This document shows positions 25,490-32,296 of a stretch of DNA of 44,917 bases, piece by piece. Within the stretch, counting starts at the first letter, position 1. Each line of letters opens with the position of its first letter. The DNA is from a virus. The stretch lies in the IMG/VR virus record IMGVR_UViG_3300007735_000741, positions 1 through 44,917 of that record. One strand, given 5' to 3'. The position numbers and the translations under genes were made by a program. The notes beneath the pieces are model-generated. The model saw only the letters and a program-made list of their open reading frames with translations, did not search any database and had not been told where the DNA came from.

Positions 25490-26617
25490 TTAGTTTTCGG
25501 AGGTTCCATATACCTTAGCAAAAAGCTCGCCAGCAACTTTACGTTGTGTGTCGTTCAATTTGTTGAGGTATACAAGTGTGAATGCTGACTTGAGAGTACA
25601 GCCAGCAGTTACTTTTCTACAGATACCAAACAAGGTACGTGGTGAAACAGTGAGACTGAACTGACCTGACTTGTAACCTTGACGAATAAGGTTAGCAAGC
25701 TTGACGAGTTCCTTAGCTGCTTTACCAGTGACTGTTGTTGGATACTTAGATGTGATGATCTTCTCTTCCACTGCTGCTGGTAGATAGTCAATGAACACTG
25801 CTGTACCAAATCTGTCAAGAGTTGCTGAGTTCTGTACGTTAGTACCTGCATGAGCACCTGTGTCATCACCTTGACCTTGTGTGTTACCGATAGCAACAAG
25901 CCTAAAGTCCTTGTGAGGAATGATTTGCTTGTCCTTGGTACTACCTGGCATCTCCTTCAAGAAAAGCTTGCCATCGTCCTCTAAGAGCCACTGTAGACCC
26001 ATTGAAATCTCTGGTGGTGTTACATCCCACTCATCCCATGCAAAGACAGCACCATACTTGACTGCTTCTGTTGCTGCACCATCTACCCAGATTGTTGAAC
26101 CATCCTTAGCCGTTAGCTGACCAAAGATCATTGAGGAATCCATATCCCCAGTGCAATTAACCCGAACAAAAGGACGATAAGTACGAGCACACAACTGCTC
26201 AATAAGACTAGATTTACCAGCGCCTGTAGGACCGTAACAAAGTACTTTCTCATTTAACTCCCATGCTTGAAGAATGTTAGAAGCAAGTTTTGCATCAATG
26301 ACGTATGTTGGATTGATACTAGGAACAAATGCAGCGATACGCTCATCCCAATCAGACTCTTGGAATACTGTGACTCCAAAGTCGTGATCAACTCTCTGAT
26401 CGATAACCTCTGAGAGGTAGATTTGATTGGGTTTAAGACCTGTATGAGGTGATGCTGCCATTAGTTCTGTAGCTGTGTCTTCTGTGATTGTTTCACATGA
26501 AACATCTGTTGATGCTTCTACTGCTTTTGGTGGCTTACGTTTGTCAAGAGCTTCTTTCAAAGCTTTCTTAACAAGGTCTTCCACCTTCGGTGATGGTGGT
26601 TTTACTACAGTTGTCAT
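25490..26617 (-). CDS. cobS: CobS / MoxR-like AAA+ ATPase
   Basis: A 375-residue protein. Residues 1-100 are a variable, partly disordered region. The AAA+ core has Walker A CYGPTGAGKSSLI (G129-S136), VRVNCTGDMDSSMIFGQL, Walker B AVFAWDEWDVTPP (191-201), sensor I region FRLVAIGNTQGQGDDTGAH and TLDRFGTAVFIDYLP. This is the CobS subtype of MoxR ATPases, which in bacteria pairs with CobT to drive the CobN cobalt chelatase. No CobN or other cobalamin gene is in the genome. A chaperone-type remodelling role with the adjacent VWA protein is therefore as likely. Its ATG overlaps the CobT-like stop (ATGA). Confidence 0.9.
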   Translation of the reverse strand: MTTVVKPPSPKVEDLVKKALKEALDKRKPPKAVEASTDVSCETITEDTATELMAASPHTGLKPNQIYLSEVIDQRVDHDFGVTVFQESDWDERIAAFVPSINPTYVIDAKLASNILQAWELNEKVLCYGPTGAGKSSLIEQLCARTYRPFVRVNCTGDMDSSMIFGQLTAKDGSTIWVDGAATEAVKYGAVFAWDEWDVTPPEISMGLQWLLEDDGKLFLKEMPGSTKDKQIIPHKDFRLVAIGNTQGQGDDTGAHAGTNVQNSATLDRFGTAVFIDYLPAAVEEKIITSKYPTTVTGKAAKELVKLANLIRQGYKSGQFSLTVSPRTLFGICRKVTAGCTLKSAFTLVYLNKLNDTQRKVAGELFAKVYGTSEN

Positions 26618-28410
26618 TTAAGAATTTTCCTTTCTATTAACTCAATCAACTTGCTCGGTATTTCTTCTGGTTCTCTGACAACACTGTGAGCTTTGTAGTA
26701 GTGCGTAACTGCATCACTACACAAACCTAACCCGTATATGTCAATAGACTTCAACGCTTCTATTTCTTTAATAACTTTCTCAGTGAACTCTTCTAAGCCA
26801 TGTGATGACTTAGATGCTGCTGGTGAACCATCAGACATCACAATCAACAGCTTCTTCTTCTCTTTACGTTTGTTCAAACGATCATAAGCCCACAAAATAT
26901 TCTCACCATCAGGGTTGCCGATCATAAATGCACTGCTGAGAGCAAAATATTCTTTAAGACTATCCTCGTTTACCCTTAGATCATTGAAGCCTTTGTATAC
27001 AAACATCAATGGTTTAGGTTCTGTGTATCCTTCAACACGATCAGTGAAGCCAAGAATCTCAAGAGGTATGTTTAGTGTTGAACAAACTTCGTTAACAAGC
27101 AGTGTAGAAGCCAAAGCGTTTAGCACTTTGTCTCCACCCATTGAACCAGACATATCTACCAACACTGTGATAGCAGCATCTAGTGTCTTGTTATCTATCT
27201 TGTTCTTAAACACACGTTCATTGAACCCTGGTGCATTGAAACAGATACGAGACAGTCGAGACTGATCTAGTTTCCCTTTCTTAACACCATACTGAGTCTG
27301 AGATTTAGCTCTGATCTGAATGAGTCTGCGTACTTGCTGTGCGAAGTTCTCCTGTGACACAAGATTTGGAGTTATCCTCTTCTCATACTCTTGCAAGAAG
27401 TTTCTTCTGTAAGGAGTTGGTTCAAAGTATTTGTCTGCACCCTTTCTACGTGGGTAGTCAACAACAATAAACTCTGAATAGTCCGTCATGTCCCAAGAAC
27501 CTCTAGAACCAGTTGGTGCAAAGTTAACACCAGTCTTGCTCATCTCTGAACCTTCTTCAGGCATAGACATTGAGAAAGACTCTATGTCTTCAGGTGTGAG
27601 AATGATGTCTATGACTTTGTACTCTGTAGCTGGATCAGTAGCCTCTTTACCATCAGACTTAATAGCTTCAGCAACCTCACCAGCTGCTTCACCATCAGCT
27701 TTCTCTGTAGTCTTACCACCCATCTTGCCTTCACCACTAGCTTCTTTAGGCTTAGCTGGGATCGGTAGTTCTTTGGGACATTGATCACCTAGTTCTTTGA
27801 GGATGTCTTCTGCTAGTTTGTACGTAGCTTCTGTACCTATCTTCTTATCCAGAATCGAATGACAATGAACAAGACGATCAGAGAAGTTATTAAGAACATC
27901 CATTACCTTTTTATTGGGAGTTGTTGTTGATGCAGCGAGTTCAATCTTTGGAAAACTACTTGCTGATAACTCAGCTTCCCAACACATCATGGCTGTAGTG
28001 AGTTTTGCAATGGCTGATGTGTTCTTACTAGCACGAACAAGGATCTGTTCTACTAGAGTTGAACTACAGTCATCCCAGTTCTCTCTGAAACCCTGATACT
28101 CCTTGGCTTCTATGACATTGATACGTGAATCTTCTAAGAAGTTCCATACAAACATCAAGATGCCTTTAGGATTTAGGTCTTTGCTCTTAAGAACATCAAA
28201 GCTACTGAAGCGATCATGTGCAACTTCATGGTCAACGGATGCCATCAGTTGCTGCAGTTCTTCGTCAGTAGTCTTATGAGTAATCCTAGGTAGATAGATG
28301 GTTTTGCCATCATGCCTAGGCTCATTAGCGTCTTCAAATACTATAGATATACCAGCCCTACCTGCACTGGCTCTAATGTATTTCTGAACTTCTATGGCTT
28401 TTGTTAGCAT
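26614..28410 (-). CDS. cobT: CobT-like VWA protein with HExxH motif
   Basis: A 598-residue partner of the downstream AAA+ ATPase. Near the N-terminus, ASVDHEVAHDRF contains HEVAH (61-65), followed at 90-96 by NFLEDSR. This is an HExxH plus acidic pair as in zinc metallopeptidase-like domains. Residues about 220-260 are a Lys/Glu/Gly linker. The C-terminal von Willebrand A domain has a complete MIDAS start DMSGSM (419-424), then VMSDGSPAASKS and IYGLGLCSDAVTHYYK. GKLDQSRLSRICF before the VWA domain is typical of CobT. Its target in a phage is unknown. Confidence 0.88.
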   Translation of the reverse strand: MLTKAIEVQKYIRASAGRAGISIVFEDANEPRHDGKTIYLPRITHKTTDEELQQLMASVDHEVAHDRFSSFDVLKSKDLNPKGILMFVWNFLEDSRINVIEAKEYQGFRENWDDCSSTLVEQILVRASKNTSAIAKLTTAMMCWEAELSASSFPKIELAASTTTPNKKVMDVLNNFSDRLVHCHSILDKKIGTEATYKLAEDILKELGDQCPKELPIPAKPKEASGEGKMGGKTTEKADGEAAGEVAEAIKSDGKEATDPATEYKVIDIILTPEDIESFSMSMPEEGSEMSKTGVNFAPTGSRGSWDMTDYSEFIVVDYPRRKGADKYFEPTPYRRNFLQEYEKRITPNLVSQENFAQQVRRLIQIRAKSQTQYGVKKGKLDQSRLSRICFNAPGFNERVFKNKIDNKTLDAAITVLVDMSGSMGGDKVLNALASTLLVNEVCSTLNIPLEILGFTDRVEGYTEPKPLMFVYKGFNDLRVNEDSLKEYFALSSAFMIGNPDGENILWAYDRLNKRKEKKKLLIVMSDGSPAASKSSHGLEEFTEKVIKEIEALKSIDIYGLGLCSDAVTHYYKAHSVVREPEEIPSKLIELIERKILK

Positions 28411-30878: not shown

Positions 30879-31007
30879 TTACCAGATGTAGATGATGAAT
30901 GGGACTGCTACAGCAGCAGCCATGACTACACAAGCAGCGTAGTCCTTCCAGGAATACTTGATCTCTGGTTGTTGAAAGATATTAGTAACATCGTAGTGTT
31001 TAGGCAT
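30879..31007 (-). CDS. 42-residue membrane mini-protein
   Basis: A minus-strand ORF with GGAG 6 bases before the ATG. The sequence begins MPKHYDVTNIFQQPEIKYSW and continues KDYAACVVMAAAVAVPFIIY, ending IW. A hydrophilic N-terminus is followed by a single C-terminal membrane span. It starts just below the strong terminator at 31034-31066, so it is the first gene of the read-through part of the early operon. Function unknown; small early membrane proteins of phages often act on the host. Confidence 0.65.
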   Translation of the reverse strand: MPKHYDVTNIFQQPEIKYSWKDYAACVVMAAAVAVPFIIYIW

Positions 31008-31033: not shown

Positions 31034-31066
31034 AAAAAAAAGGTAGTAGATTGAACTACTACCTTT
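31034..31066 (-). terminator. Strong intrinsic terminator after the first early gene
   Basis: On the minus strand AAAGGUAGUAG and CUACUACCUUU form a perfect 11-bp stem with loop UUCAAU, followed by a run of U (complement of A at 31034-31041). It lies 8 bases after the stop of the 71-aa gene. It would end most transcripts from the leader promoter, so the rest of the early operon needs read-through, antitermination or another promoter. Confidence 0.92.
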
Positions 31067-31074
31067 GATTAAGG

Positions 31075-31290
31075 TTAAGCACGTGCGAGTGCATCAGCCT
31101 TGAGCTTCGCACGAAGTGCTTTAACTTCGTTGAAGATGTTGTTGACTTCCTCAGTACGAGGATTGTCATACTTAGTCATAGACCAAAGAGCATTACTCAA
31201 TAACTGCTGTGCCAGAAAAATCTGCAACCCAGCTGGTTTGTGCTCTACGAGACTGCTGAAAGCGTTGAAATCGAAGTTACTTTGAGACAT
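31075..31290 (-). CDS. First early gene, 71-aa protein of unknown function
   Basis: A 71-residue protein starting MSQSNFDFNAFSSLVEHKPA. I chose the ATG at 31290 because AAAGGA stands 6 bases upstream. The longer in-frame reading from 31404 runs through the structured leader and is not believable. It contains GLQIFLAQQLLSNALWSMTK and a basic helical end (EVKALRAKLKADALARA). It is isolated between a complex structured leader and a strong terminator, the position of an immediate-early or antitermination-type gene, but no such family is recognised. Confidence 0.75.
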   Translation of the reverse strand: MSQSNFDFNAFSSLVEHKPAGLQIFLAQQLLSNALWSMTKYDNPRTEEVNNIFNEVKALRAKLKADALARA

Positions 31291-31302
31291 TTTGAATCCT
31301 TT

Positions 31303-31377
31303 GTTTCGTTGATAAAGCGAGGGGGTTTTCATCCCCCTCACAGGGTGCGGGGGTGAAAATCTCCGAGCCAACGAAAC
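31303..31377 (-). promoter_or_regulatory. Leader RNA with mutually exclusive hairpins
   Basis: On the minus strand an outer 9-bp stem GUUUCGUUG/CAACGAAAC (31377-31369 with 31311-31303) ends directly next to the AAAGGA ribosome site (31302-31297). Inside it, GGGGG (31337-31333) can pair upstream with CCCCC (31353-31349), extended by UUUUCA/UGAAAA to 11 bp with one bulge. It can instead pair downstream within GAGGGGG/CCCCCUC (31339-31333 with 31325-31319, 7 bp). The two forms cannot coexist. This is the layout of a regulatory RNA switch; the trigger is unknown. Confidence 0.65.
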
Positions 31378-31407: not shown

Positions 31408-31457
31408 CCCCACGCTTGACACATGACAGGTTCCGCGAAGCGGGTTCTGGCGTGGGG
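31408..31457 (-). other. GC-rich stem-loop in the early leader
   Basis: CCCCACGC (31408-31415) pairs with GCGTGGGG (31450-31457), 8 bp. The enclosed loop folds again around CCGC-GAA-GCGG. A perfect 12-base palindrome TGCTGCGCAGCA (31460-31471) and a 6-bp stem ACTGCG/CGCAGT (31489-31507) follow toward the promoter. All would lie in the untranslated leader of the early transcript, or could act as DNA structures near an origin. Confidence 0.55.
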
Positions 31458-31510
31458 CATGCTGCGCAGCAGCGTAGGCTAACCACAGACTGCGGGGCGG
31501 ACGCAGTAGG

Positions 31511-31540
31511 ATACTAAATGTCACCACAGTAACTTCTCAA
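31511..31540 (-). promoter_or_regulatory. Candidate sigma-70-type early promoter
   Basis: On the minus strand TTGAGA (31540-31535) and TAGTAT (31516-31511) are separated by 18 bases, matching the -35 and -10 consensus at 5 and 4 of 6 positions. Transcription would start near 31504, at the first leader hairpin, and run into the 71-aa gene. A second minus-strand candidate (TTGTTT, 18 bases, TATAAG; 31888-31859) lies further upstream. Both are by-eye matches only. Confidence 0.4.
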
Positions 31541-32165: not shown

Positions 32166-32296
32166 GTAGGGACTTGAAGATAATCTTTGGCTCGGACTCT
32201 AGAGGCGGTCTTCACAATAGGAGTCCCTACACTTACACGCATGGAGACTGGCTATTGTCATGACAGTAGTTCCTAGTTAACAGTCTCCAGCCGTGT
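32166..32296 (+). promoter_or_regulatory. Two large stem-loops in the late mRNA leader
   Basis: Stem-loop 1: GTAGGGACT (32166-32174) pairs with AGTCCCTAC (32222-32230), continued inward by TGAAGA/TCTTCA (32175-32180 with 32209-32214). Stem-loop 2: ACACG and TGGAGACTG (32235-32250) pair with CAGTCTCCA and CGTGT (32281-32296), 14 bp with one small internal loop. Its 30-base loop holds the palindrome TGTCATGACA. A smaller hairpin ATAAGG/CCTTAT follows at 32309-32327. They probably stabilise or regulate the late transcript. Confidence 0.6.

Follow-up and report, generated by a model that had tools for sequence, protein, structure and literature searches.

Location and content of the early transcription unit

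The window is the whole stretch of DNA that was analysed, a 44.9-kb record of an uncultivated virus (44,917 nucleotides). The terminase and structural genes were found on its plus strand, while the early genes were on the minus strand and ran away from position 31290. The first early gene (gene 1) starts with AUG at 31290 (-) and is preceded by AAAGGA at 31302-31297 (-). The 87 bases upstream of it that an earlier note had picked out were the 3' portion of an approximately 250-nt leader RNA, and the element reaches approximately 31533 (-). The features of the leader and of the first transcription unit, in the order of transcription, are as follows:

31508..31533, minus strand: 5' strand of helix P0, GUUACUGUGGUGACAUUUAGUAUCCU, an anti-ribosome-site strand that closes the leader; predicted to pair with the Shine-Dalgarno sequence (SD) and the AUG region with probabilities of 0.98 and 1.00
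31422..31454, minus strand: hairpin P3, CACGCCAG-AACC..GGAACC-UGUCAUG with C.A and C.U mismatches; CGCCAG invariant in 41/41 leaders
31369..31377, minus strand: 5' strand of the outer stem (P0c), GUUUCGUUG; 99% of cells paired among 11 distinct relatives, with compensatory changes at two pairs
31349..31359, minus strand: 5' strand of P1, UUUUCACCCCC; own duplex -19.0 against -11.8 kcal/mol when swapped, p ≤ 5e-5
31326..31339, minus strand: shared middle strand, GAGGGGGAUGAAAA, which pairs in either P1 or T
31319..31325, minus strand: 3' strand of T, CCCCCUC, the competitor of P1; weaker covariation, kept with a different sequence in L118/L137 and L033
31303..31311, minus strand: 3' strand of the outer stem (P0c), CAACGAAAC; covariation with the 5' strand
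31276..31300, minus strand: 3' strand of P0, made up of AGGA of the ribosome site, the start codon and the first codons
31075..31290, minus strand: first early gene, 71 aa, a conserved small helical-hairpin protein with approximately 50 relatives; pLDDT of the predicted model 89.6
31039..31066, minus strand: intrinsic terminator, beginning approximately 10 nt past the gene 1 stop codon, present in 41/41 loci

The leader was found directly before the first early gene in approximately 50 related contigs of uncultivated phages in IMG/VR, and the structured part adjoined the start codon in every relative with sufficient upstream sequence. The comparison set (n = 41) consisted of 38 non-redundant leaders and the diverged L137, L138 and L143, all metagenomic; L137 is the same locus as L118 and L138 the same locus as L120. 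In the diverged L118 the element still heads the early operon though gene 1 encodes a different protein there. No family was found for the 71-aa protein in PHROG or Pfam, and it had no match in a phage collection (tblastn) or among bacterial genome contigs. The leaders had no match among phages and plasmids (blastn), and the element was absent from Manatee Spring MW202796 and Alcaligenes phage QDWS535, which have related terminases and the same genome plan. A structure search with the 71-aa model gave no significant match; a Rop-like fold was considered and rejected, the likeness being that of a generic helical hairpin only (E ~7).

The terminator after gene 1, defined as a hairpin followed by a T run, was identified by script in 38 loci and by eye in the other 3. 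Gene 2 of the window starts at 31007 (-), 26 nt past the terminator. A promoter between the two is unlikely because gene 2 begins so soon; unless gene 1 itself contains a promoter, transcription of the early operon must depend on read-through. The match to a sigma70-like promoter at 31540-31511 was not above chance, and no conserved promoter was seen among the leaders. In the intergenic region between the divergent early and late genes, an inverted repeat (GGAGACTG...CAGTCTCC) was observed at 32243-32290 of the window, perhaps an operator or origin feature.

The predicted folding of the leader was more stable than expected for its composition. A 101-nt piece had a folding energy of -36.4 kcal/mol and, compared with dinucleotide shuffles, a z value of -2.8; for the full 291-nt leader the z value was -5.2, with 0/200 shuffles equally stable.

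Mutually exclusive stems of the leader

Three stems had been claimed for the 3' part of the leader, and all of them were found in the minus-strand transcript where the earlier note had placed them. In the window, P1 is formed by UUUUCACCCCC at 31359-31349 with GGGGGAUGAAAA at 31337-31326 (11 bp, one bulged A), and T is formed by GAGGGGG at 31339-31333 with CCCCCUC at 31325-31319. The note had proposed a leader for the first early gene in which stems compete next to the ribosome site, and this proposal was supported.

P1 was the best-supported helix. Across 24 leaders, the duplex of the P1 strand with its own middle strand had a mean energy of -19.0 kcal/mol compared with -11.8 kcal/mol for the middle strands of other leaders (permutation p ≤ 5e-5), and the portion of P1 beyond the G/C run gave the same strand-swap p value (≤ 5e-5). 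In the leaders of the window's form (group A, described below), the conservation and covariation that the note had proposed to look for were strong for P1 with the outer stem: 98.2% of cells were paired, seven pairs had changes on both sides and the covariation score was 0.315 compared with at most 0.096 for slid pairings. For T the evidence was weaker but positive, so that the competition between the stems survived the refuting outcome named in the note. T was kept and its strand-swap test was positive (p = 6e-4), while its covariation was positive but weaker; T with the outer stem had 93.2% of cells paired and a score of 0.207 compared with at most 0.136 for slid pairings, with two-sided change in 1/7 T pairs.

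The diverged leaders showed how the two pairings are kept. At the three positions, L033 has CCCUCUC, GAGAGGG and CCCUCUC (T = GAGAGGG/CCCUCUC), and L137/L118 have ACCUGAC, GAGUCAGGU and CCUACUC, where both pairings survive on wholly different bases. In L118, P1 is formed by AAAUUACCUGAC/GUCAGGUAAUUU and T is still kept, as GAGU(c)AGG/CCUACUC in both L118 and L137; in L138 T is weak. By these sequence comparisons, T is supported more weakly than P1 and the outer stem, yet is kept even where all three strands changed.

In the predicted folds, P1 was the ground state. The ratio of P1 to T was approximately 0.95 : 0.05 in the full-leader ensemble of the window, and forced folds placed T 1-7 kcal/mol higher than P1 in most loci and 2.8 kcal/mol higher in the window. 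The competing stems do not have the form of an intrinsic-terminator attenuator: GCUUUAUC comes next after T with no U tract, and no minus-strand terminator was listed at T.

Pairing of the ribosome site and start codon

A long-range helix of the leader that the note did not mention, P0, is predicted to join the 5' strand to the ribosome site and the start codon of gene 1, and in most leaders the partner strand lies 216-290 nt upstream of these. In partition-function calculations, the SD and the AUG were both paired more than 150 nt upstream (P > 0.5) in 33/41 leaders compared with 15/123 controls, which were leaders with the upstream part alone shuffled. The same closure of SD and AUG from far upstream was found for 5/34 other genes of the window. 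The complement upstream of the SD thus closes a branched leader.

Four loci gave clear examples. P0 was formed by CUGAGACAAAGUUCCUA with UAGGAACUUUUUAUGUCUCAG in L010, by GACAUUUAGUUCCUUUA with UAAAGGAACUUUCAAAUGUC in L047, by GGUUCA(AG)UCUAACUCUUA with UAAGGAGUUAGA(AA)UGAACC in L137, and by UGUGCCA, GCUAAC and CCU with AGG, GUUAGC and UGGCACA in L138. P0 also tracks codon 2, with GCC...GGC in L036/L042 where others have GACA...UGUC. Significance was not reached for the individual P0 duplex in every locus.

When P1 or T was forced, P0 stayed in both folds in most loci. In the predicted folds, the choice between P1 and T alone therefore neither exposes nor hides the ribosome site, which at most loci is covered by P0 whichever of the two forms, and the idea in the note that P1 and T switch the ribosome site finds no support in these folds as it stands.

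Structure and conservation of the P3 hairpin

P3 sits in the domain enclosed by P0. Its 3' side, UGKCA, is nearly invariant, mismatches included. The upper part was found in three versions, namely AACC/GGAACC, UCG/CUUUG and AGGGG.../AAAGUC; the third (CCAGAGGGGCCCC..CCCCAAAGUCCUGG) was present in L002, L011 and L036 with the lower part unchanged. A pattern search of 22 whole contigs located P3 in the expected place in 20, once per contig except for two chance-like extras, and the two whole contigs with no pattern match have loops longer than the pattern permits. In the window and in L003, the P3 strand CCCCACGC can also pair with the downstream GCGUGGGG (31450-31457 and 31408-31415 of the window), and the lowest-energy fold favours this pairing over the conserved P3.

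Permuted forms of the leader

The leaders were of two architectures. Group A, which includes the window, has P1 as a local hairpin preceded on its 5' side by the P3 domain. In group B, P1 is a long-range helix whose loop of 141-195 nt holds the P3 domain. The group B domain had 91.6% of cells paired, two-sided changes in 16/33 pairs and a covariation score of 0.277 compared with at most 0.066 for slid pairings. A covariance model built from group B (R1) aligned the local hairpins of the group A leaders L143 and L035 as P1 minus the domain (E = 0.007 and 0.03, respectively).

Groups A and B interleave on the tree of the 71-aa protein. The most parsimonious reconstruction needed 11 changes and the well-supported branches force at least 5, the exact counts being soft because the tree rests on 76 columns. 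Examples of the alternation are L026 with L030, and L020 with L015/L016. The two forms therefore replace one another before similar genes, which suggests that they do the same job, and the leader has by this evidence been repeatedly exchanged or rearranged, with at least five forced changes. Such a recurrent swap before near-identical genes amounts to a natural experiment that can tell essential from dispensable parts of a regulatory RNA.

Comparison with described RNAs

The earlier note could name no class for this RNA, and the searches agreed: the window and ten relatives gave 0 matches in Rfam 15 at the gathering score, and a permissive Rfam search gave a single sub-threshold, chance-level match (STnc350, 19.3 bits compared with a cut-off of 60). 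No report of this RNA was found in the open-access PMC literature, a scope that leaves most subscription papers outside. Genes for a CobS-like AAA+ ATPase and a CobT-like VWA protein were observed in the early region (window 25490-28410 (-)) and also in L118. A cobalamin riboswitch was considered because of these downstream genes and was rejected, there being no Rfam match.

By anatomy, the nearest described system is the maturation-gene leader of phage MS2, in which the SD is closed by a complementary strand further upstream, with a branched domain between them (PMC6071253), and whose behaviour has also been described in a second source (PMC6733600). The leader here is alike in having an upstream strand that closes the SD around a branched domain, and transient alternative hairpins have been proposed for MS2. 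However, the MS2 leader belongs to the genomic RNA of an ssRNA phage, is unrelated in sequence and has neither a conserved P3 nor permuted forms.

By its exclusive stems, the leader is nearest to that of lambda cIII, which adopts two mutually exclusive conformations near the ribosome site of an early phage mRNA (PMC4166951). In cIII one of the conformations itself occludes the site and the choice is set by temperature, whereas here a separate long-range helix is predicted to close both states. By position, the nearest is the HK022 put RNA, which follows closely on an early promoter and consists of two stem-loops in approximately 70 nt (PMC9378689). As with put and the nutL-N-tL1 region of lambda, a structured RNA starts the early transcripts and the early genes lie beyond terminators. 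The put anatomy was not found, the leader here being branched, approximately 250 nt long and closed by a long-range helix, with no promoter identified.

By long-distance control of the SD, the nearest is aapA3 of Helicobacter, a type I toxin mRNA in which long-distance pairing and metastable hairpins control access to the SD (PMC6733600). There the distant partner is the 3' end of the mRNA, unlike here, where no antisense RNA was identified either. Translational riboswitches are alike in that their domain is conserved, one of their stems has a competing partner strand and their ribosome site is sequestered; the leader, too, keeps a structured domain ahead of an ORF, and its alternative pairings lie close to the ribosome site. 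They differ in that the leader has no Rfam match and no known ligand, and its domain is permutable relative to P1. Because the leader lacks, or may not share, a defining feature of each of the four systems (MS2, cIII, put and aapA3), it was kept outside all of them as a ribosome-site-occluding RNA of its own.

Proposed function and alternative explanations

The region is proposed to be a cis-acting control leader that heads the early operon and occludes the ribosome site, a reading drawn from comparative sequence data to which we give roughly even credence. The comparison of relatives shows gene 1 with its ribosome site and start codon paired to the 5' strand of P0, and with the P3 domain and the G-rich strand, which can pair in P1 or in T, enclosed between them. 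With P1 formed, the leader would close and gene 1 would be left untranslated. With P1 absent, either because T forms instead or because a factor or ligand acts through P3, P0 would close poorly or late and gene 1 would be translated. P1 and T would thus tune the ease of P0 closure, and P3 may be the recognition site. A ribosome that ends gene 1 beside the terminator could in addition aid read-through by the polymerase into the early operon.

The excess of P0 over controls, the strand-swap p values of P1 and T, the near-invariance of P3 and the terminator in all loci argue for this reading, as does the position of the element at the head of the early operon even when gene 1 is replaced (L118). 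The survival of P0 in both the forced P1 and the forced T folds argues against it, as do the minor share of T at equilibrium, its modest column-wise covariation, and the P0 duplexes that individually fall short of significance at some loci. Since P0 survives both forced folds in most loci, the link from the P1/T choice to the ribosome site is one that we infer.

Four alternatives were weighed, which rank in the order given here. The first, considered rather unlikely, is a kinetic timer in which gene 1 is translated on new RNA only: T-like local hairpins would form first, P1 and P0 would form slowly, and equilibrium would shut the gene. This would follow the MS2 plan, with an upstream strand sequestering the SD around a branched domain and a competing local hairpin present, and it would suit group B, where T pairs locally and P1 over a span of 141-195 nt. 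In group A, the form of the window, T would have no kinetic advantage, because P1 is itself a local hairpin and is transcribed before T. The 5' strand of P0 also seemed free of any metastable trap until the SD is transcribed (54% unpaired on average), and a timer leaves the near-invariance of P3 unexplained.

The order of leader, gene 1 and terminator resembles the plan of the PL-nutL-N-tL1 region of lambda, and this likeness raises a second alternative, that the leader or the translation of gene 1 controls read-through. The leader would act on the polymerase as an antitermination RNA of the put or nut kind to pass the gene 1 terminator, with P3 as a hairpin that binds the polymerase or a factor. 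This would account for the terminator that follows gene 1 at every one of the 41 loci and leaves no room for a promoter before gene 2, and for a P3 that is invariant, single-copy and also present in two unrelated elements (L114 and L115, described below); the put RNA, which lies just downstream of its early promoter, needs no phage protein (PMC9378689). An antitermination RNA, however, gives no reason for the ribosome site and start codon to be the partners of the 5' strand, its match to the anatomy of put (~70 nt, two stem-loops) or to any Rfam family fails, and partial termination alone could account for the terminator. Its probability is accordingly rated as low.

The third alternative is a processing or stability element. 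Its long helices would be cut by RNase III or would protect the 5' end, and the pairing would be conserved for cleavage or for the lifetime of the mRNA instead of for switching. P0 and P1 are indeed long continuous helices, but such an element would predict neither two alternative partners for one middle strand nor that the closure should centre, as it does in most loci, on the start codon, and it is considered very unlikely. The most improbable alternative is a structure at the DNA level, such as an origin stem for replication or a palindrome bound by a protein, in the space that separates the divergent early and late genes, with the ribosome-site pairing as a by-product; the element does adjoin the divergent intergenic region and G-U pairs are rare (4 G-U cells in the group B domain, none in P1 and the outer stem of group A), so that RNA-specific wobble evidence is thin, but in most loci the SD, start codon and codon 2 are among the pairing partners, and the element keeps its place immediately ahead of gene 1 throughout, even when gene 1 is replaced (L118).

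Occurrence of P3 in other contigs

Hairpins of the AACC type of P3 (ACGCCAGAACC..GGAACCTGTCATG) were also found at L115:5567-5596 and L114:633-662, both with extra complementary flanks. L115 is a contig of a Nitrospirae metagenome-assembled genome (MAG), where P3 precedes an SSB-like gene and has secretin and resolvase genes nearby; L114 is a contig of a Lentisphaerae MAG. The chance expectation for the scan of MAGs was approximately 0.06 matches (hand estimate), which suggests that the P3 motif may occur in contigs of other phyla beyond chance. A third match of that scan, in L113, was inside a coding sequence, which makes this evidence suggestive only; it and the match in L123, likewise inside a coding sequence, looked like chance. 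L115 was also considered as a full homolog, P1-like and T-like hairpins being visible by eye; model R1 failed to recognise it, and so only the P3 motif is claimed there.

A wider and more tentative proposal, which we hold to be possible rather than probable, is that the leader represents a new class of regulatory RNA of phages and possibly of other mobile elements. In such a class, a portable P3 for a widespread factor or ligand would be wired to a three-strand switch and to occlusion of the start codon; the P3 module could be permuted, lying inside or upstream of the switch helix, without loss of function, and the RNA would control entry into the early operon by way of gene 1 translation and terminator read-through. 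If this is true, a whole group of uncultivated phages decides the start of its early programme by an RNA structure with no Rfam match. The near-invariance of P3 and its presence in two contigs from other bacterial phyla point to a binding partner that could be captured directly.

Finally, a look-alike of the UCG-type P3 was observed at L125:3690-3715 (-) in an otherwise unrelated viral contig (17.7 bits, E ~0.1), and this may be chance.
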